A stretch of 64,000 nt of DNA, from positions 471 to 64,470 of the forward strand of contig JAABRT010000002.1 in assembly GCA_011390805.1 (NCBI GenBank). The letters are read 5' to 3'. Made by a program: the position numbers and the translations under genes. Positions 3-54,470 of this stretch are shown here, one piece after another; the stretch's first letter is position 1; every line of letters begins with the position of its first letter. Source of the stretch: Gemmatimonas sp. (GTDB taxonomy: Bacteria > Gemmatimonadota > Gemmatimonadetes > Gemmatimonadales > Gemmatimonadaceae). Below the pieces are notes generated by a model. It was not told the origin of the DNA and ran no database searches. It saw only the letters and a list, made by a program, of their open reading frames with translations.

Positions 3-1754
3 TTTGAAAATCCCGGCACCGGCGACCTGCGCTTTTCCGCCATCTCCGCCGACACGGGCACGCACATACTCGAGCTGATTGCACCGTCAGGGAAACCGGC
101 GGCGTACATGCTTTCGCTCTTGCGACAGGAGCCGCTCGCGCGTGACCCGGCGCGGCGCGCCGACCAGCTGCTGGCGCGCTACGACGCACCGGGCATGCCG
201 GGCGGCGAAGTCCGTGTCTGGCGCAACGGTCGCGTGTTGTACACAAAGGGATTCGGCATGGCAGACCTGCGGCACGGGATCCCGTATCGCACCAATACGC
301 CTACAAACATCGGTTCAACGTCAAAACAGTTCACGGCGTTCGCGGTGTTACTGCAGGCCGAACGCGGTGCGCTGTCGCTCGATGACGACATCAGAAAGCA
401 CATTCCAGAGCTGCCGGAGCTGGGCGACACCGTGCGCGTGCGGCACCTCATCACGCACCAGTCAGGGCTGCGCGAGTTTCTCAATCTGCTCGCGATGACA
501 GATCGACAGGTCAGCACCGATTGGATCAACCGCGAGGAGCTTATTCAAATCGTGCAGCGTCAGCCCAGGCTGCAGAATGCGCCGGGAGCCGAGTTCAACT
601 ACAACAACACGGCCTTCGGATTGGCGGCGCTCATTGTGGAGCGCACGTCGGGCAAGTCGTTTCCGGATTACCTGCGCGACGAGCTGTTCAAACCGTTGGG
701 CATGACCCGCTCCATGGCGCGTGCAGACCGGGCCACGATTGTGCCCAACGCGGCGATGGGGTATGCCGCACGCCCCGCCGGTTTTGCTGAGATGGGCGAT
801 CTGGGCGGCGCGCTTGGAGCCGGCGGGATTTATACCACGGTGGAGGATCTGCAGCGCTGGGGGGAAAACATGCTGGCTGCAAAACCCCGCGTCGGGTCAC
901 GCGCAATCTTCGACACGATGATGACCAACGGCCAGCTCACCGACGGCCGGAAATCGGATTACGGGATGGGCGTGTTTGTGGACGAACAGCGCGGTGTTCG
1001 TCGTGTGCAACATGGCGGCTCGGATGTGGCGCACCGTTCAATGCTGGCGCTGTATCCCACGTTGAATGCCGGCGTGTCGGTACAGAGCAACAACGCCGGT
1101 TTCGCCTCGAGCGTGGCCTTTGAAATCGCGTCGGCATTTTTTGACGCGGAAATGCAATCGCCGTCCACAATAGCGCCCGTGGCATACGATCCTTCACGGA
1201 TGACGGCTGCGCGCTTTGACGCGTTCGTGGGGCGCTATGCCCTTGATGCCGCACCGGCGTTTGTGATTCGCGTATTTCGCGAAGGGACATCATTCTTTGC
1301 GCAGGCCACCGGTCAGGAGCGCATTGGTATCGTGCCAACGTCCGATTCGAGCTTCTCGCTCACCGGTGTTGAGGCGGCCCTTCGTTTCCGACGTGACGCG
1401 GCAGGCGAGGTTAGCGGACTGACGCTCGTACAGGGCGGCGAGCAGCGGGCAACGCGGCTCACTGATGCACCAGCCTTTGCTCCTACCGGTGCAAAGCTGG
1501 CCGAGTTTGCGGGACGCTTTTTCAGCGAAGAGCTCGAGTCGTTTATCACGATCGTGCAGCGGGGCGATACGCTTTTGCTCACGCAGCGGCGACATGAAGA
1601 TGCGCCGCTCAAGGCGTCGAATAAGTCAGACACGTTTGACGGGCGCGGTCTCACGCTGTCCTTCGAACGGGATCGCAACGGTGCGATCATCGGCTTTTAT
1701 GTTGCCAACGGACGCACGCGTGATGTGCGGTTTGGCAGAGTGAGGCCGTGGTGA
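3..1754 (+). CDS. Serine hydrolase, beta-lactamase class C / S12 family, 5' end outside window
   Basis: The frame is open from the first complete codon of the window, so the gene starts upstream; the ATG at 108 is internal. About 35 codons before it read as a folded segment running straight into the hydrolase domain. The hydrolase has the SxxK nucleophile motif in NIGSTSKQFTAFA, a Tyr-x-Asn motif in FNYNNTAFG and an HGG motif in VQHGGSDVAHRS, which takes the place of KTG. These are the three active-site elements of penicillin-binding-protein-like esterases and D-amino peptidases. Two C-terminal beta-barrel-like segments follow, starting FVGRYALD and FAGRFFSEE, as in DUF3471-type tails. It is probably exported, but the signal peptide is off-window. 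Substrate cannot be told from sequence. Its stop overlaps the next gene. Confidence 0.85.
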   Translation, partial: FENPGTGDLRFSAISADTGTHILELIAPSGKPAAYMLSLLRQEPLARDPARRADQLLARYDAPGMPGGEVRVWRNGRVLYTKGFGMADLRHGIPYRTNTPTNIGSTSKQFTAFAVLLQAERGALSLDDDIRKHIPELPELGDTVRVRHLITHQSGLREFLNLLAMTDRQVSTDWINREELIQIVQRQPRLQNAPGAEFNYNNTAFGLAALIVERTSGKSFPDYLRDELFKPLGMTRSMARADRATIVPNAAMGYAARPAGFAEMGDLGGALGAGGIYTTVEDLQRWGENMLAAKPRVGSRAIFDTMMTNGQLTDGRKSDYGMGVFVDEQRGVRRVQHGGSDVAHRSMLALYPTLNAGVSVQSNNAGFASSVAFEIASAFFDAEMQSPSTIAPVAYDPSRMTAARFDAFVGRYALDAAPAFVIRVFREGTSFFAQATGQERIGIVPTSDSSFSLTGVEAALRFRRDAAGEVSGLTLVQGGEQRATRLTDAPAFAPTGAKLAEFAGRFFSEELESFITIVQRGDTLLLTQRRHEDAPLKASNKSDTFDGRGLTLSFERDRNGAIIGFYVANGRTRDVRFGRVRPW

Positions 1755-2401
1755 TTCCGCTCGAGTTTTCCCGCCGTTCGCCGGCCGAATCGCTGGCTAC
1801 CGGGCAGGCGTTCTACGCCTCCATGCAGCGCCGTCGCACCACTCGGCATTTCTCCACCGATGCCGTGCCACGTGCGCTCATCGAGCTCGCGATCCGCACG
1901 GCGGGCACTGCGCCCAGCGGGGCGCATCAGCAGCCGTGGACGTTTGTGGCCGTCTCCGACGCCGGCACCAAACAGCGCCTGCGCACCGCCGCTGAACAGG
2001 AGGAGCGTGCCTTTTACAACGGCAAGGCTCCGGAGGAGTGGCTGTCGGCACTCGCGCAGCTTGGCACCGATGAACACAAAACACACCTCACCGATGCGCC
2101 GTGGGTGGTGGTGCTGTTCCGTCAGGTGTATGGCCTGCACGCCGACGGCAGCAAGCGCACGCACTACTACACTCAGGAATCGTGCGGTATTGCAGCGGGA
2201 CTGTTCATTGCGGCGGTACACCAGATGGGTTTGGTCACACTCACGCACACGCCAAGCCCCATGGGATTTCTATCGGAACTGCTTGAGCGTCCGGCTAATG
2301 AAAAAGCCATGCTGGTAATGCCGGTTGGTTATCCGGCGGCTGATGCTCGCGTGCCGGATATCGCACGCAAGTCGCTGACTGACATCGCCGTCTGGCGATG
2401 A
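1748..2401 (+). CDS. Nitroreductase-family flavoprotein, iodotyrosine deiodinase-like
   Basis: 217 residues with a GTG start at 1748, overlapping the hydrolase stop by 7 nt; a second GTG at 1751 is an alternative. The FMN-site signature is clear: an RRRTTRHF segment near residue 30 and APSGAHQQPW near 55-64. The lid region holds Glu86, Tyr90 and Lys111. This spacing (E-x3-Y-x20-K) is the same as the substrate-clamping triad of iodotyrosine deiodinases (Glu157, Tyr161, Lys182 in the human enzyme), which grips the zwitterion of a halotyrosine over the flavin. Established knowledge: bacterial members reductively dehalogenate halotyrosines. I infer the same activity here; a generic nitroreductase is the fallback. 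It converges on the histidine kinase gene with only 16 nt between stops. Confidence 0.85.
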   Translation: MVIPLEFSRRSPAESLATGQAFYASMQRRRTTRHFSTDAVPRALIELAIRTAGTAPSGAHQQPWTFVAVSDAGTKQRLRTAAEQEERAFYNGKAPEEWLSALAQLGTDEHKTHLTDAPWVVVLFRQVYGLHADGSKRTHYYTQESCGIAAGLFIAAVHQMGLVTLTHTPSPMGFLSELLERPANEKAMLVMPVGYPAADARVPDIARKSLTDIAVWR

Positions 2402-2417
2402 GGCGTGCAAACGATGC

Positions 2418-4568
2418 TTACTTCGCCAGCAACTGATCCACGGCTGTCACCAGATCACGCATGTTGAATGGCTTGGCCAGCATGGGCGTGCCTGAGTCCA
2501 CATCGCGCACGAGTTGCTCGCTGGTGGAGAAGCCGGTGATGTAGAGCACGGGGAGGTCACCGTTCTGCTCACGCAGTGACCGCACAAACACAGGCCCTGA
2601 TTCCGCCGGCAGCACCACATCGCTGATCACGCCGTCAATGCGACCAGCGTGTTCGTCGTACAGTCGTCTTGCTTCGGCTGCATCTCCGGCCTCAAGCACC
2701 GTGTACTTCGCTTCACGTAAGGCCCGTGCTGCAACCCGCCGGAGCGGCGCGTTGTCCTCAACCAGCAGCAGTACGCCGCCGGCAGTCGGTGGCCTCGAGC
2801 CAACAGCCGAAATCGCGGGCGATGCGACTGAAGACGAACACGCGGGCAGAAAGATGAAAAAGGTCGTCCCGGCACCGAGCGTACTTTCGACTGTCACAGC
2901 GCCCCGCATTTGCGCTGCCAGCGACTGCACCATGGCCAGTCCGAGTCCCGTACCCTGACCTACCTCCTTGGTGGTGAAAAACGGCTCGAAGATGTGCGGC
3001 AGGACATCGGCTGGAATCCCGCTGCCGCTGTCTGCTACAGAGATCACCACCCAAGGTCCTTCGAACTCACCATCGGTGACCCGGTTTGGCCCCGAGTTGC
3101 TCCCGGTGACCTCGAGGCGCAACGAGCCGCCTGAGGGCATGGCATCACGCGCATTCAAAGCCAGGTTGAGCAGCATCTGTTCAACGGCACCAGCGTCAGC
3201 CACGGCGGTGAGCGTTGGACTTTGCAGCTCCAGTGACACTGCGATGTGTTCGCCCAGCACACGCTGCAACAGTCCGGTGGTCCGGTTCAACACGTCGGCG
3301 ATTGCAACATCCGTTACGTGAATCCGTTGCTGGCGGCTCAACGCGAGCAGTTGTCGGGTGAGCGCGCGGGCACGCCCCGCGGCATCGTGTACTTCCACCA
3401 CGTCCAGTCGGAGCGCTTCCGGCAGTTGCCGGTCGGCGAGCATGATCTCCGTGATGCCGCCAATCACCGTGAGCAGGTTGTTGAAGTCATGCGCAACGCC
3501 ACCGGCCAGCCGGCCCACGGCCTCCATCTTCTGCGCCTGAATCAGCTGGGACTCGAGGGCGCGACGTTCAGTGACGTCTTCCACAATGCCGATCGTAGAA
3601 TCCACCTCGCCCTGCTCGGTGCGGAAGTACCGGGCGCGCAGGATGATTTCGCGAACGGCGTCATCACCACCACGCAGAATGCGAAAGGCGAACTCCGCTA
3701 CCTCGATGCTGCTGGCTCTGCTGGCCGTGCGATCCATTACCAGCTGATCGCGGTCCTGTGGATGTACGAAGTCGAACCAGCCGTTGCCTTTCAGCTGCGT
3801 AGCGGTGGCTCCGAATATTCGCTCCATCGTGGCGTTGACGAACGCCACCCGTCCATCCCGAGCATGCTGGAACACGCCCACAGGCAACTGCTCGGTGAGC
3901 ACACGAAACCGGCGCTCGCTTTCAATGAGCGCCCGCTGAGCGCTCGCCGTCTCGCGGTCGGCCGCACTCCATCGCACCCAGAGCAAGCCAAACAGCGCTC
4001 CCAGACCGAGAATGGTGGCCGCCAGGATGGTGAGCGCGAGTCGGTGTCGCTCGTCATCACGCTGCTGGGCCGCACTGCTGCTCTGGGCCACCAGCAGGTC
4101 GATGGTGTCGGCGAGGAACGCGAGGTCGGTGTACGCCGAGCGGAGTTGCACCGCGGTACGGGCCCCCCGGGGCAGACGCAGCAACGAGTCGAAGCGGGCC
4201 ACTTCGTTGGCCCACCGACCGACGGCATCGCGCAGTGGCGAGTCGGGCAACGGCACCACGGTGGGCACATTGCGGGATCCCTCGCGCCCTTGCTGCCAGT
4301 CGGTGAGCAGCAGTCGTGCACGCAGAATGGCGCCCCTCACCTGACTGGTGTCCACAGACGCGTCACCGCCATCCACGCGCGAACGCAACAGGAACGCTGA
4401 GGACACCTGATTGCGCACACCATTTGCCAGCCGGACGGCCGACGCGGCACGATCCAGCTCCTGGCGTGTCTGCTGGTGACGCCACTGCAGGGCGGCGGCC
4501 GCGGCGATGGCGGCCACCAGCATGCCGGCAACGATGGGCCACGCGATGCGGCGAAGAATGAGGCTCAT
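2418..4568 (-). CDS. Hybrid sensor histidine kinase with PAS domain and C-terminal receiver
   Basis: 716 residues. Two membrane segments (about 8-28 and 177-198) bracket a periplasmic helical sensor region. A PAS domain follows (about 215-335, with FVNATMERIFG and a PAC segment ending GIVEDVTERRALE). The dimerisation/phosphoacceptor motif is GGVAHDFNNLL with His360. The ATPase domain shows the N box LNLALNARDAM near 470 and G boxes VADSGSGIP and GQGTGLGLAMV. A receiver domain (about 598-716) has Asp650 in VISDVVLP and Lys699 in LAKPF. The enzyme should autophosphorylate His360 and pass phosphate to its own receiver. No separate output regulator lies nearby. The start overlaps the stop of the upstream binding-protein gene by 4 nt, so the two are co-translated and probably form one sensing unit. 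Confidence 0.93.
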   Translation of the reverse strand: MSLILRRIAWPIVAGMLVAAIAAAAALQWRHQQTRQELDRAASAVRLANGVRNQVSSAFLLRSRVDGGDASVDTSQVRGAILRARLLLTDWQQGREGSRNVPTVVPLPDSPLRDAVGRWANEVARFDSLLRLPRGARTAVQLRSAYTDLAFLADTIDLLVAQSSSAAQQRDDERHRLALTILAATILGLGALFGLLWVRWSAADRETASAQRALIESERRFRVLTEQLPVGVFQHARDGRVAFVNATMERIFGATATQLKGNGWFDFVHPQDRDQLVMDRTASRASSIEVAEFAFRILRGGDDAVREIILRARYFRTEQGEVDSTIGIVEDVTERRALESQLIQAQKMEAVGRLAGGVAHDFNNLLTVIGGITEIMLADRQLPEALRLDVVEVHDAAGRARALTRQLLALSRQQRIHVTDVAIADVLNRTTGLLQRVLGEHIAVSLELQSPTLTAVADAGAVEQMLLNLALNARDAMPSGGSLRLEVTGSNSGPNRVTDGEFEGPWVVISVADSGSGIPADVLPHIFEPFFTTKEVGQGTGLGLAMVQSLAAQMRGAVTVESTLGAGTTFFIFLPACSSSVASPAISAVGSRPPTAGGVLLLVEDNAPLRRVAARALREAKYTVLEAGDAAEARRLYDEHAGRIDGVISDVVLPAESGPVFVRSLREQNGDLPVLYITGFSTSEQLVRDVDSGTPMLAKPFNMRDLVTAVDQLLAK

Positions 4569-5455
4569 CGCGATGGTGGTGGCTGACGCAGCGTGCCGGT
4601 TACGGTGGCTTCGGGGAGGTTCTCAATACCGAACTGCTGTTTCACGATCTGATGAGCAGGGGTGCCCAGCACCTCGTTGAGCGCACCGTTGAGCGCGTCG
4701 CGGAAGTCGGTATCGTCAAGTCGCACGGCGTAGGCCGGCCGACCCTGCGCCATTTCCTGCAATGCGGTGTCGTTTGGGAACGCCAACGGAACAACCGCCA
4801 GATCAGCGCTGTCAGCGCGAGTGCGTCGCAGGTGTGCGAGCGAAATCATGGACAACATGAAGGCGTCGGCGTTTTGCGACTGCACGGCCACACGTGCGGT
4901 GGTTGGGTCTGGCACGTTCAGCAGTTGATCAGGCGCAAGACCGGCGGCGAGGGCCAACTGTTCTTCTGCAGATCCGGCGATGATGGCGAGCCTTGCTTGC
5001 CGATCAGCGGCGAATGCCTCCAGCGACCCGCCCACCTCCACGTCCGCGCTCCGTACCAGCAGGGCCGTGGGATCGCGCAGTGTGGGCCGGGTGAACAACA
5101 CCGATCGCTCGCGCTCCGGCGTGATGTACATGCCGGCGGCGATCACATCGAACTCGCCGCGCTGCAGCTCAAGAATCAGCGAGCGAAACTCCGTGGCCAC
5201 CCACTCGATGCTGTCCACGCCGAGATTTTTCATCACCAGCCGGAGTACTTCCGGACTCTCGCCCGACACGTGACCAGTCGAATCAACAAGCGCAAACGGC
5301 ACTTCCACGGCGTAGCCCACCCGCACAATACCGGTGCGGCTCACCCGTTCCCATGTACTGCGTTCCTCGGGGGTTGCACAAGCAGAGCTCAGCACGCCGA
5401 GCGCGAGTGCGCCGAAGATCAGTGTGGTGCACGCCTGGCGCCGAGTGGTGCGCAT
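4565..5455 (-). CDS. Amino-acid-type periplasmic solute-binding lipoprotein (SBP family 3)
   Basis: 296 residues. The N-terminus has an arginine-rich n-region, a hydrophobic stretch and a lipobox LSSAC with Cys26, so it should be a lipoprotein. The mature part shows the family-3 pattern: IVRVGYAVEVPFA at the start of lobe 1, SPEVLRLVMKNLGVDSIEW, then FDVIAAGMYITPERER, the usual signature after the ligand loop. The end (LNEVLGTPAHQIVKQQFG) matches the terminal helix of these proteins. There is no ABC permease or ATPase beside it. Instead, its last codons overlap the start of the hybrid histidine kinase by 4 nt. I therefore infer a ligand-presenting role for the kinase rather than import. The ligand is likely an amino acid or a related small polar molecule, but this is not resolved. 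Confidence 0.87.
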   Translation of the reverse strand: MRTTRRQACTTLIFGALALGVLSSACATPEERSTWERVSRTGIVRVGYAVEVPFALVDSTGHVSGESPEVLRLVMKNLGVDSIEWVATEFRSLILELQRGEFDVIAAGMYITPERERSVLFTRPTLRDPTALLVRSADVEVGGSLEAFAADRQARLAIIAGSAEEQLALAAGLAPDQLLNVPDPTTARVAVQSQNADAFMLSMISLAHLRRTRADSADLAVVPLAFPNDTALQEMAQGRPAYAVRLDDTDFRDALNGALNEVLGTPAHQIVKQQFGIENLPEATVTGTLRQPPPSR

Positions 5456-5520: not shown

Positions 5521-7152
5521 TCAGCTCCCCACAATCCGCGATGGAATAGCTCGGGGAGTCATCACTTTGTAGACGGGCGCCAGCGGCGGCTGCGCGGATT
5601 CGGCGCCGGGGAATCCGGTCTCCCGATCCGGGGTGGACGGAGGAGGTGGCATGATCCGGGACATGGGGATCCAGGCATCCATGGTATTCCAGTAGAACAC
5701 GTTGTCGTTGGTCTCCGGCTCGAGCATATGGGCGGCCAGGCGGCCCATCATCTGCCCGGTGCGAATGACGTAGCTGCCCTTGGGGAAGGTCTCGGTGCGC
5801 TGCACGGTCTCGTCGGCCAGCTTGAGCTTCACCGCTGCCGCGTGGTTGTACGCGCGCTCAAAGCCAACGCCCTCGATGACATATGCTTCAACCTGGGCTT
5901 CCATCGGTTCCATGAGGCGCTCCACCATAACGCCGGCGCGCTGCAACATGGCGACGGCGTCTACCGCGTCGCGCGGAAGAATGTATGCGTAGGGACGCGG
6001 ACGGGTTTTAGTAGCCACCGGACGCGTCATCATGGAATCGTTGGTCACCTTCACCCGCTTGCGCTCACCGCCCTCCATGACGCCGATTTCGTAGGTGACG
6101 GAGTAGGGCTGCGGCTGGTACTCCATCTCCACCACCACGTCGCCCTTAGCCTGCTGACCCATCTCCACCGTCTCGCGACGGGCACGGTTTACGGTTTCCA
6201 TGAGCTTGGCCGGGTTGTCGCGGGCGTACTCCACCACCGCCTTGTAACCCAGCACGCCCGCCTGCACGCCTTCATTCATGGGCTGCCGCGGCGGCGATTC
6301 AAAGAGGATGCCCACCATGTTGGCGAAGCCGCCAAAGTTGCGGCCGATGCGGGCGTCATAACCACCGCCGTTCCAGCGCGTGCGGGTTCCGCTCGCGTAG
6401 TACCAGGTGTCCATGCCCACCGCCTCAAGGCGCCGGTCGATGGCTGGAAAAATCTCCTCGTCGCACAGCGCCGTAATACGCTGGTCGGGCTCGGCGTGCG
6501 ACGGGCACTGATAGGTGAGCTGGTATGGGAACTGTCCGCCGTTGTGTCCGTCCACAAACATGTGAGGCATCCAGCGGCCGATCACGTTCTGCGCGTAGGC
6601 TGCCATGGAGGGCTGCTCCCGCTTCACCCAGTCGCGATTCATATCAATGCCCCAGGCATTTCCACGCGTACCGTTTGGAGAGGCCTCGAAGCCATCGGGG
6701 TTGATCTGCGGCGCCACCACGATCACCACATGGTCCAGGTAGCCGTTGGCCTCCGTGCCCGGCGTCGCCATCTCCCGCATGAGAATGAGCAACGATTCGC
6801 GAAGCGTGCGTTCTCCGCCGTGTACGTTGGCGTTGAGCACCACCACCGGACGTCCCAGCGACCAGGCCTCCCACGGCTCGCTCACCGCCGGGCGGGAGAA
6901 GACCATGTACGGCAGTTCGCGTCCCTCGTAGCTCTCCCCGTAGATGCCCATGCGCACTTCGGGGCTCATTCCCTGCAGCGTGCGCAGGTGCTCCATCATG
7001 GAAGCGTAGGGCGTGTATTCGGTGAAGCCTGAGCGCTCCGCGTGGGTCTGGGGCTCCTGGGCCGCGCCGGAGGAGATGGGTAGCACAAGCGCTGCGGCAA
7101 GCGCCAGCAGGCGGCCTGTGGAGGTAGAGGGCAGGCGGAAGTTCGACGTCAT
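5521..7152 (-). CDS. Secreted M14-family zinc carboxypeptidase
   Basis: The frame is open to 7572, but the ATG at 7152 is chosen because it gives a normal signal peptide (basic start, LLALAAALVLPIS, cleavage near GAAQ) and an AGGA sequence lies about 10 nt upstream; the earlier 140 codons have no protein-like character. The mature enzyme has the M14 zinc ligands HGGE (His111, Glu114) and a later His in VDGHNGGQFPY (His203). The substrate-binding segment GIDMNRDWVK is present, as is NPDGFE, which is usual before it. It should cleave C-terminal residues or amide-linked groups outside the cell. The C-terminal ~250 residues have no clear match to me; they may be a beta-rich accessory domain. It is transcribed away from the glycosyltransferase gene. 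Confidence 0.88.
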   Translation of the reverse strand: MTSNFRLPSTSTGRLLALAAALVLPISSGAAQEPQTHAERSGFTEYTPYASMMEHLRTLQGMSPEVRMGIYGESYEGRELPYMVFSRPAVSEPWEAWSLGRPVVVLNANVHGGERTLRESLLILMREMATPGTEANGYLDHVVIVVAPQINPDGFEASPNGTRGNAWGIDMNRDWVKREQPSMAAYAQNVIGRWMPHMFVDGHNGGQFPYQLTYQCPSHAEPDQRITALCDEEIFPAIDRRLEAVGMDTWYYASGTRTRWNGGGYDARIGRNFGGFANMVGILFESPPRQPMNEGVQAGVLGYKAVVEYARDNPAKLMETVNRARRETVEMGQQAKGDVVVEMEYQPQPYSVTYEIGVMEGGERKRVKVTNDSMMTRPVATKTRPRPYAYILPRDAVDAVAMLQRAGVMVERLMEPMEAQVEAYVIEGVGFERAYNHAAAVKLKLADETVQRTETFPKGSYVIRTGQMMGRLAAHMLEPETNDNVFYWNTMDAWIPMSRIMPPPPSTPDRETGFPGAESAQPPLAPVYKVMTPRAIPSRIVGS

Positions 7153-7485
7153 GCAGGTGTCCTGATCGGGATGGTGCGCACACGCGCTGAGGCGGGCCGC
7201 AGTGGAACGGGGAGGATGGCTGGAAGAATAGGAGTGGGGGGAGGGGAGGGCAATCTGCGCGCCGATCGCCAGATAGAGCGGACTTGCTCCCGGAAATGCG
7301 ACTACGGCATCGCGCAACGAAAGTTCGCGCTTGACCGGGGTGGCCGGAACCAGACGCTCGATGGCCGATCCGCCAATGGCGGGGAAGGGCTCCCACTGCG
7401 AGACTGCACGAATGCAACTGCGACCTGCAATTTTTCGTCTGACGCTGTGCGCAGCTAACGCCCTGACCAGCGCCGCGCCGCGCTC
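7153..7485. other. Divergent intergenic region, likely promoters for the M14 peptidase and glycosyltransferase
   Basis: 333 bases separate two divergently read genes, so promoters for both should lie here. I see no convincing gene: the reading frames that cross it are extensions of the peptidase frame, with no homology-like pattern. It has a purine-rich run near 7222-7250. I could not place -10/-35 elements with confidence. Confidence 0.4.
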
Positions 7486-8775
7486 GTGAGGCTTATCGTC
7501 TTCACCATCGGCACCACAGGCGACGTGCTGCCGCACATCGCGTTGGGCGCGGCCGCGCACCGCGCAGGCCATGCCGTTACGGTGTGTACAAGCACGCGCT
7601 ACGAGGCGCCGGTGAGGGCACGCGGGCTCGAGTTCGCACCGCTCTCCGACGATCTGGTGGCACTTGTGGAGACGCCTCAGGGGCGCCGCGCAATCGACGC
7701 TGCCGGCGGTGCGACGCGCGGCGTGCGGGACCTCGTGGGTCTTGTGAAGCAGTCACTCCGCATTCAGCGTGAGCTGTTCCGCGACGGCTGGGCTGCCGCC
7801 GAACATACCTCGCCCGATCTGCTCGTCTACCATCCCAAGATGGCAATCGCCCAGCACTACGCAGAGCGGCTGTCGGTTCCCGCCGTGATGGCGCCGCTGT
7901 TTCCCATGTTCCGGACAACGGGTGCGTATCCGATGCCCGGCTTCCCGGCCCTTGCACTCGGCGGCCCCCTCACGCGCGCCTACAACCGCGCCACGCATCG
8001 CTTGCTGCGCACCGTGGTGAGTCAGTCCAGCCGCATGCTCTTCGCGAAGTGGCGCCAGGCGCACGGTCTCCCACGGCAGCCACTGCGCGCGAGCGTGGTG
8101 CACGATCACGCGGGTGCACCGGTCCCCATTCTGAACGGCTGGAGCCGCCACGTGGTCCCCGAGCCGGAAGATGTGTCGGCCGACCGATCGTTCACAGGTG
8201 GTTACTGGTTCCCCTCGCGCGACGACGCGTGGGAGCCCCCTGACTCGCTGGTGGATTTTCTTGGTCAGGGACCGCCGCCGGTTTACGTCGGCTTCGGCAG
8301 CATGGCGCCGCGTGATCCCAAGCGTACCACGCGCATGGTGCTCGACGCCGTGGAGCGTGCCGGTTGCCGTGCCGTGCTCGCACGCGGCTGGGGTGGTCTC
8401 GAGACGCACGACCTGCCGCCTTTCGTGCACGGGCTTGGACAGGTGCCTCACGAATGGCTGTTTGCGCGCGTCGCCGCGGTTGTTCATCACGGTGGCGCGG
8501 GCACTACCGCGGCCGGGCTGCGCGCCGGCGCACCGACGCTGATATGTCCTTTTTTCGGTGACCAGCCCTTCTGGGGGCGTCGCGTGCAGCGGCTCGGCGT
8601 TGGGCCCGCTCCGCTGGCTCAGCGAACGCTGAGCGCGACCACGCTGGCTGCGGCGATCGGGGAACTCACGAGCCTTGTGGACTACCGCCAACGTGCGGAG
8701 GCGCTCGGTGCAAAGCTGCGCGAGGAGGACGGTGCGTCTGCGGCCGTTTGTTTTCTGGAGGAGACGGTTGCGTGA
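7486..8775 (+). CDS. GT1/MGT-type glycosyltransferase (sterol/antibiotic glucosyltransferase-like)
   Basis: 429 residues from a GTG start. The N-terminus, RLIVFTIGTTGDVLPHIALG, is the first strand and glycine loop typical of GT-B fold glycosyltransferases, followed by HAVTVCTSTRYEAPVRARGL. The C-terminal donor-binding half is clear: VYVGFGSM, then VPHEWLFARVAAVVHHGGAGTTAAGLRAG and PFFGDQPFWGRRV, the UDP-sugar signature of the UGT superfamily. It is therefore expected to transfer a nucleotide-activated sugar onto a lipid or small aglycone. No biosynthetic cluster surrounds it, so the acceptor is unknown. It stands alone and runs convergently into a truncated lipoprotein gene. Confidence 0.9.
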   Translation: MRLIVFTIGTTGDVLPHIALGAAAHRAGHAVTVCTSTRYEAPVRARGLEFAPLSDDLVALVETPQGRRAIDAAGGATRGVRDLVGLVKQSLRIQRELFRDGWAAAEHTSPDLLVYHPKMAIAQHYAERLSVPAVMAPLFPMFRTTGAYPMPGFPALALGGPLTRAYNRATHRLLRTVVSQSSRMLFAKWRQAHGLPRQPLRASVVHDHAGAPVPILNGWSRHVVPEPEDVSADRSFTGGYWFPSRDDAWEPPDSLVDFLGQGPPPVYVGFGSMAPRDPKRTTRMVLDAVERAGCRAVLARGWGGLETHDLPPFVHGLGQVPHEWLFARVAAVVHHGGAGTTAAGLRAGAPTLICPFFGDQPFWGRRVQRLGVGPAPLAQRTLSATTLAAAIGELTSLVDYRQRAEALGAKLREEDGASAAVCFLEETVA

Positions 8776-54167: not shown

Positions 54168-54470
54168 ATGCACTCCCTCTCTGATATCGAAATCCAGCGC
54201 TCGCTGGGCACCCTGCCGGGGTGGGCGCGCAAGGGCAACACGCTTACGCGCACCTATCAGTTCGATGCGTTCCCCGCAGGCATCGACTTTCTGCGCAAGG
54301 TGGCCGATATCGCCGAGTCGCAGCAGCACCACCCGGATGTCGATGTGCGCTACACCAAGCTCACCTTCAATCTGAGCACGCACGACGCGGGCGGCATTAC
54401 CGAGAAAGACTTCGCGCTCGCGCGCGCCGTGGATGCCCTGTACGAATCAGACGTCAGCCCGCACGCTTAA
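54168..54470 (+). CDS. phhB: Pterin-4a-carbinolamine dehydratase
   Basis: 100 residues, full length for the family. Active-site motif: SQQHHPDVDVRYTKLTF, with His54, His55 and Asp57, and THDAGGITEKDFALA with the third His (72) and Asp73. The enzyme dehydrates 4a-hydroxytetrahydropterin formed by aromatic amino-acid hydroxylases. No hydroxylase gene is nearby. Its 3' end overlaps the convergent DUF4097 gene by 17 nt. Confidence 0.96.
   Translation: MHSLSDIEIQRSLGTLPGWARKGNTLTRTYQFDAFPAGIDFLRKVADIAESQQHHPDVDVRYTKLTFNLSTHDAGGITEKDFALARAVDALYESDVSPHA

Follow-up and report, generated by a model that had tools for sequence, protein, structure and literature searches.

Results

An IYD-type nitroreductase gene and its surroundings

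The DNA analysed here, which we refer to as the window, is a stretch of 64,000 nucleotides from Gemmatimonas sp. Positions 1748–2401 of its forward strand hold an open reading frame of 217 amino acids and a stop codon, which we assign to the FMN nitroreductases of the iodotyrosine deiodinase (IYD) type from the frame itself, PDB matches, an alignment and a structural overlay. Two start codons are equally possible, GTG at 1748 and GTG at 1751, and a GAGG is located 5 nt before the latter. The first-pass annotation of this DNA had described a nitroreductase with Glu86, Tyr90 and Lys111 in the spacing E-x3-Y-x20-K and with an APSGAHQQPW flavin segment, and both descriptions are exact: the three residues, scripted from the translation, are found at these positions, and the segment spans residues 55–64 (positions 1910–1939, forward strand). 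This FMN- and phenolate-side segment reads APSGAHKQPW in the IYD of Haliscomenobacter hydrossis (HhIYD) and APSGAHTEPW in mouse IYD. The triad is encoded on the same strand by GAG (2003–2005), TAC (2015–2017) and AAA (2078–2080), positions which we take to form the substrate clamp of IYD, where the lid meets the zwitterion, and Thr168 is encoded by ACG (2249–2251).

Upstream, and not part of the enzyme, a serine hydrolase of the beta-lactamase family identified by Pfam (3–1754, forward strand) is cut by the window start, and its stop codon overlaps the start of the IYD frame. Downstream, on the opposite strand, follow a PAS hybrid histidine kinase/response regulator (2418–4568) and an EhuB-like family-3 solute-binding protein (4565–5455; 175.6 bits against a cut-off of 190.9). 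The frame of the binding protein runs into the start of the kinase, and the two are perhaps a ligand-sensing pair rather than part of a transporter. Further along, an M14 peptidase frame on the opposite strand (5521–7572) has a called start that overlaps a forward-strand glycosyltransferase (7486–8775), which resembles the rifamycin-inactivating Rgt at 135 bits, far under the cut-off of 800.

Neighbourhoods were compared for the window and 84 distinct loci, and for 37 further Gemmatimonadota loci, some of them from genomes in the first set. In neither set did we find a widely shared neighbour of IYD or a conserved neighbour linked to halogens. The serine hydrolase was not seen beside IYD in any of the 84 other loci, including that of the closest relative (L031); a relative of it lies several kb from IYD on the other strand at one locus (L055). 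Some neighbours are specific to a lineage, such as a GCS2-CBS protein downstream in five of the 37 loci and a DinB protein downstream in three. In a small sub-lineage of window-type loci (L053, L058, L059, L062, L063, L135 and L151) arginine-biosynthesis genes lie just upstream of IYD; argC, argB and argD were recognised in just two representatives, L151 and L135. A weak linkage could be missed in this comparison, since the crude greedy choice of open reading frames mis-called IYD itself in some loci, with 73 of 85 loci in the IYD cluster under these calls. As the hydrolase is not kept and the other neighbours are lineage-specific, the enzyme looks free-standing, and the lack of conserved neighbours means that the context does not point to a natural halogenated substrate.

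Sequence and structure place the protein among the IYDs

In a phmmer search of the PDB, HhIYD (5KO7, listed there as 'Nitroreductase' but an IYD by its entry title) was the top match with an E-value of 1.6e-68, followed by mouse and human IYD at about 1e-52 and, further down, by the IYD of 6PZ0 (2.2e-18), while the first chain without an IYD label reached 2.8e-9. A profile built from a 51-row alignment (A1) gave the same order of IYDs, with top matches that were all IYD. Sequence identity of the window protein amounts to 51.4% with HhIYD (210 columns) and 43.7% with mouse IYD (213 columns). Pfam assigns it to the general nitroreductase family alone (PF00881, 71 bits against a cut-off of 23.5), which together with the overlay described below places it on the FMN-binding fold of the nitroreductase superfamily. 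The NCBIfam search gave no match above cut-off, and no curated IYD model was matched; its best match, BluB (5,6-dimethylbenzimidazole synthase), was rejected at 54.1 bits against a cut-off of 150, as was the C-terminal domain of the F420 ligase FbiB at 48.4 bits against 249.55.

An AlphaFold2 model, predicted from alignment A1 as a single chain without cofactor, had a pLDDT of 90.8 and a pTM of 0.88, with the weakest confidence at residues 91–110, within the lid; in solved HhIYD, 202 residues are resolved without iodotyrosine (5ko7_A) versus 218 with it (5ko8_B). In a Foldseek search with the model, IYD chains filled ranks 1 to 25, the iodotyrosine-bound 5ko8 being the top one. The overlay on IYD that had been proposed as a check of the first-pass reading was carried out with VIA-align, and on 5ko8_B it gave a Z of 28.7 at 1.1 Å over 217 of 217 residues, compared with 27.8–28.0 for ligand-bound mammalian IYD, 18.5 for the best chain without an IYD label and 18.3 for BluB. 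Because the overlaid ranges, 1–217 on 6–222, leave no gap, residues 86, 90 and 111 correspond to HhIYD residues 91, 95 and 116, an offset of +5. For human IYD the offset is +71 and the triad falls on residues 157, 161 and 182; the human range in the overlay (72–289) contains one extra residue, which the phmmer alignment places after residue 172 for mouse. The triad is thus in register with the solved IYDs, and Thr168 lies, by the structural overlay, on human Thr239, presumably the contact to flavin N5. The location of the triad relative to the flavin is predicted from this register with 5ko8, and by the same register a triad lying away from the flavin, one of the two outcomes named in advance as speaking against the IYD reading, did not turn up.

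The bare E-x3-Y-x20-K pattern arose in 175 of 20,000 shuffles of the window protein (about 0.9%), so the spacing by itself is weak evidence. Glu86, Tyr90 and Lys111 are invariant in all 51 rows of alignment A1, and in a 130-row MAFFT alignment each of the 128 IYD-type rows has the triad E/Y/K. The two remote nitroreductases, G001 and G006, which come from the same taxonomic family as the window and are 26–29% identical, both have Q/R/P at these sites. Some of this conservation is to be expected, since rows were picked by similarity to the window protein. A count from pairwise BLAST gave EYK in 109 of 110 loci and EEK in L085, in which MAFFT restores the tyrosine, pointing to an effect of gap placement. 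Residue 168 is Thr in 127 of the 130 MAFFT rows, Ser in one and a gap in the two non-IYD rows. We consider that register and conservation lift the triad above chance, and that homology, as read from the sequence comparisons, settles the identity of the protein.

Two apparent IYD lineages in the Gemmatimonadota

A careful tree was built from 130 rows and 215 columns; its bootstrap had not settled. The 128 IYD-type rows were split from the two other nitroreductases by a long branch at 100/100, with an outgroup that consists of those two rows only, and the separation of IYD from other nitroreductase subgroups rests on the PDB matches and the structural comparison. A position in some other nitroreductase clade, which had been named in advance as speaking against the IYD reading, did not materialise: G001 and G006 branch outside all IYD-type rows. 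The window protein groups with those of L031, L037, L046 and L032 (100/92), inside a window-type clade (type W) of 51 rows (99/93) made up of Gemmatimonadota together with L042 and L064. The latter two are MAG records labelled Acidobacteriota and Actinomycetota, respectively, and may reflect gene transfer or mis-binning.

The sister of the window-type clade (94/88) consists mainly of Chloroflexota, Acidimicrobiia and Myxococcota, and not of the other Gemmatimonadota IYDs, which suggests that IYD is present in the phylum as two distinct lineages, one of them possibly gained by transfer. The other type (type D, or type-2) is found phylum-wide outside the window clade and is about 50–62% identical to the window protein; it forms one group in only 67% of bootstrap trees, and one locus (L123, genome G309) fits neither type. 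The labels were fixed after the quick tree had been seen, and the careful tree is therefore not an independent test of the division. By majority rule the two types differ at 15 alignment positions. At the flavin-side residue 60, His is found in 49 of 50 window-type rows and Asn in 25 of 30 type-2 rows (type-2 loci L122–L161), and this replacement, seen at the level of sequence, suggests that substrates may differ within the IYD family.

IYD genes are common in the phylum

The window IYD is the single PF00881 gene in its own genome (3.96 Mb, 88% complete). At the family level 60 of 179 genomes gave matches; leaving out the non-IYD G001 and G006 makes this 58, of which a few are partial. In the phylum sample it was 184 of 395 genomes, or 182 after the same two were dropped. 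Any implication of the first-pass annotation that the gene is unusual is thus not borne out. A contig scan with six peptide patterns of the window protein led to 372 loci that could be confirmed, and the 80 best of them were retained. Among these best 80 of 372 are records of Chloroflexota, Actinomycetota (Streptomyces, Amycolatopsis, Nocardia), Myxococcota, Verrucomicrobiota, Planctomycetota and Rhizobiales, and the nearest named relatives are Gemmatimonadaceae MAGs at 75–82% identity, which upholds the label Gemmatimonadota.

Tyrosine catabolism and sources of halogenated tyrosine

The window's own genome encodes 4-hydroxyphenylpyruvate dioxygenase (HPPD; E 4.0e-138). No homogentisate dioxygenase (PF04209) turned up in this genome at its 88% completeness, and its tyrosine route may thus have gaps. 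A pterin-4a-carbinolamine dehydratase (PF01329, 103 bits) is encoded at 54168–54467 on the forward strand; in other bacteria this protein is a helper of phenylalanine hydroxylase, and it has a possible bearing on tyrosine metabolism. Among the 255 of 395 genomes outside the window's family, HPPD was found in eight of 12 with a window-type IYD (seven of 11 if G255, absent from the tree, is set aside), in 10 of the 129 that carry the other type and in 24 of the 114 that have no IYD, where types were set by identity (60% or more being window-type) and counts were made by hand. Inside the family it was found in 41 of 41 genomes with IYD and in 86 of 99 without. Fisher tests of the co-occurrence of IYD type and HPPD outside the family gave p-values of 5e-6 and 0.002 with shared ancestry ignored; the association of window-type IYD with HPPD is confounded by ancestry and is a lead only.

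As to the origin of halogenated tyrosine, the animal-type heme peroxidase PF03098 had no match in the genome, in a search that matched no control either. A match to Trp_halogenase (PF04820; 22.9 bits) is no evidence of a halogenase, as it covers only 59 positions and the same search gives matches in E. coli.

Discussion

We consider it very probable that the window protein is a soluble bacterial iodotyrosine deiodinase, a reading for which fold, register and residues are computed, and for which we infer the dimer, the cofactor, the chemistry, the electron donor and the physiological substrate. As regards family membership, the original suggestion of an IYD is borne out by PDB matches, structure and residues alike, all of which group the protein with the IYDs. 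By analogy with solved IYDs, it would be a domain-swapped FMN homodimer in which a halotyrosine is gripped at its amino-acid end by Glu86, Tyr90 and Lys111 of the lid, and in which the APSGAH segment would position the phenolate above the flavin. Thr168 at flavin N5 would favour one-electron steps, and the reduced FMN would then strip the ortho halogen (I, Br or Cl) to give tyrosine and halide. The tyrosine could feed the 4-hydroxyphenylpyruvate route.

Closest among the known systems is HhIYD (5KO7, 5KO8, 5KRD), which has the same triad, the same APSGAH and THTPSP segments and the length of the window protein in its catalytic domain, but belongs to another bacterial phylum and has Met at lid position 94, where the window protein has Ala. 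Mammalian IYD/DEHAL1 (3GB5, 3TNZ, 4TTB, 4TTC, 5YAK) shares the triad and the equivalent of Thr239, at a Z of about 28. The mammalian enzyme carries an N-terminal membrane anchor; the window protein begins directly with its catalytic domain and is therefore without an anchor of this kind. The structure 6PZ0 (IYD with L-tyrosine), presumably from Thermotoga neapolitana, bears the IYD label and has the same fold at a Z of 23.6, but with 26% identity and a shorter chain (192 amino acids). BluB and the C-terminal domain of FbiB share the nitroreductase fold, with Z about 18 and scores far under the family cut-offs, and are not IYDs.

Could the protein instead be an ordinary oxygen-insensitive nitroreductase (NfsB-like) or a flavin-cleaving enzyme of the BluB type, with a triad that arose by chance? 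Pfam gives no more than the general family, BluB tops the NCBIfam matches and the motif does turn up in shuffled sequence, but the BluB score is about one third of its cut-off, the structural Z favours HhIYD by a wide step over BluB, and both non-IYD nitroreductases in the comparison are without the triad and sit far from the IYD-type rows in the tree. We regard this explanation as extremely improbable, and as largely refuted by PDB matches, alignment, structure and tree. Somewhat less remote, yet still very unlikely, is that IYD is translationally coupled to the upstream serine hydrolase and that both act on one substrate, for example a halogenated peptide; the overlap of start and stop codon would fit such coupling, but the pair was not seen in the 84 other loci, some of which are short, so that a neighbour could lie outside them.

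A minor but real possibility is that the protein is an enzyme of the IYD fold with another natural substrate, such as a phenol-bearing amino acid or a nitro or quinone compound, whose clamp binds a tyrosine-like zwitterion and for which deiodination is a side activity. The supply of iodotyrosine in soil or fresh water is uncertain, the compared loci offer no halogen-linked neighbours, and the type-2 proteins of the phylum keep the triad while most have Asn at residue 60. On the other hand, the triad, Thr168 and His60 of the window protein are all as in HhIYD, a protein solved with iodotyrosine, and at the sites printed around them mouse IYD also matches except at position 167. We favor the deiodinase reading, and we infer that halotyrosines are dehalogenated in the cell; by analogy, the likeliest role would be salvage or detoxification of environmental halotyrosines.

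According to a passage of PMC13078365, citing Phatarphekar 2014, IYD occurs from mammals to bacteria, and an excerpt of PMC6017928 describes Iyd as a specialised subgroup within the nitroreductase superfamily; the worm orthologue is treated in PMC3930498 and plant nitroreductases in PMC7538488. We found no paper in the open-licence literature pairing 'Gemmatimonad' with 'iodotyrosine'. Bacterial IYDs are already established by the three PDB entries from H. hydrossis, and it is well supported that the window protein is an ordinary, intact member of low surprise.

In the human thyroid, the setting in which IYD is best known, iodine is removed from tyrosine by an enzyme of this kind. The window protein lends itself well to an assay, though it is not surprising in itself, and the presence of IYD in nearly half of the sampled Gemmatimonadota genomes suggests an ordinary environmental role in the turnover of halogenated tyrosine. 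It is conceivable, if rather unlikely, that the two unlike IYDs of the phylum serve different ends, with type D, mostly without HPPD, in detoxification of halide or phenol compounds and type W, mostly with HPPD, in drawing carbon from halotyrosine. If true, the split into two kinds would make the Gemmatimonadota a test bed for the role of IYD outside animals.
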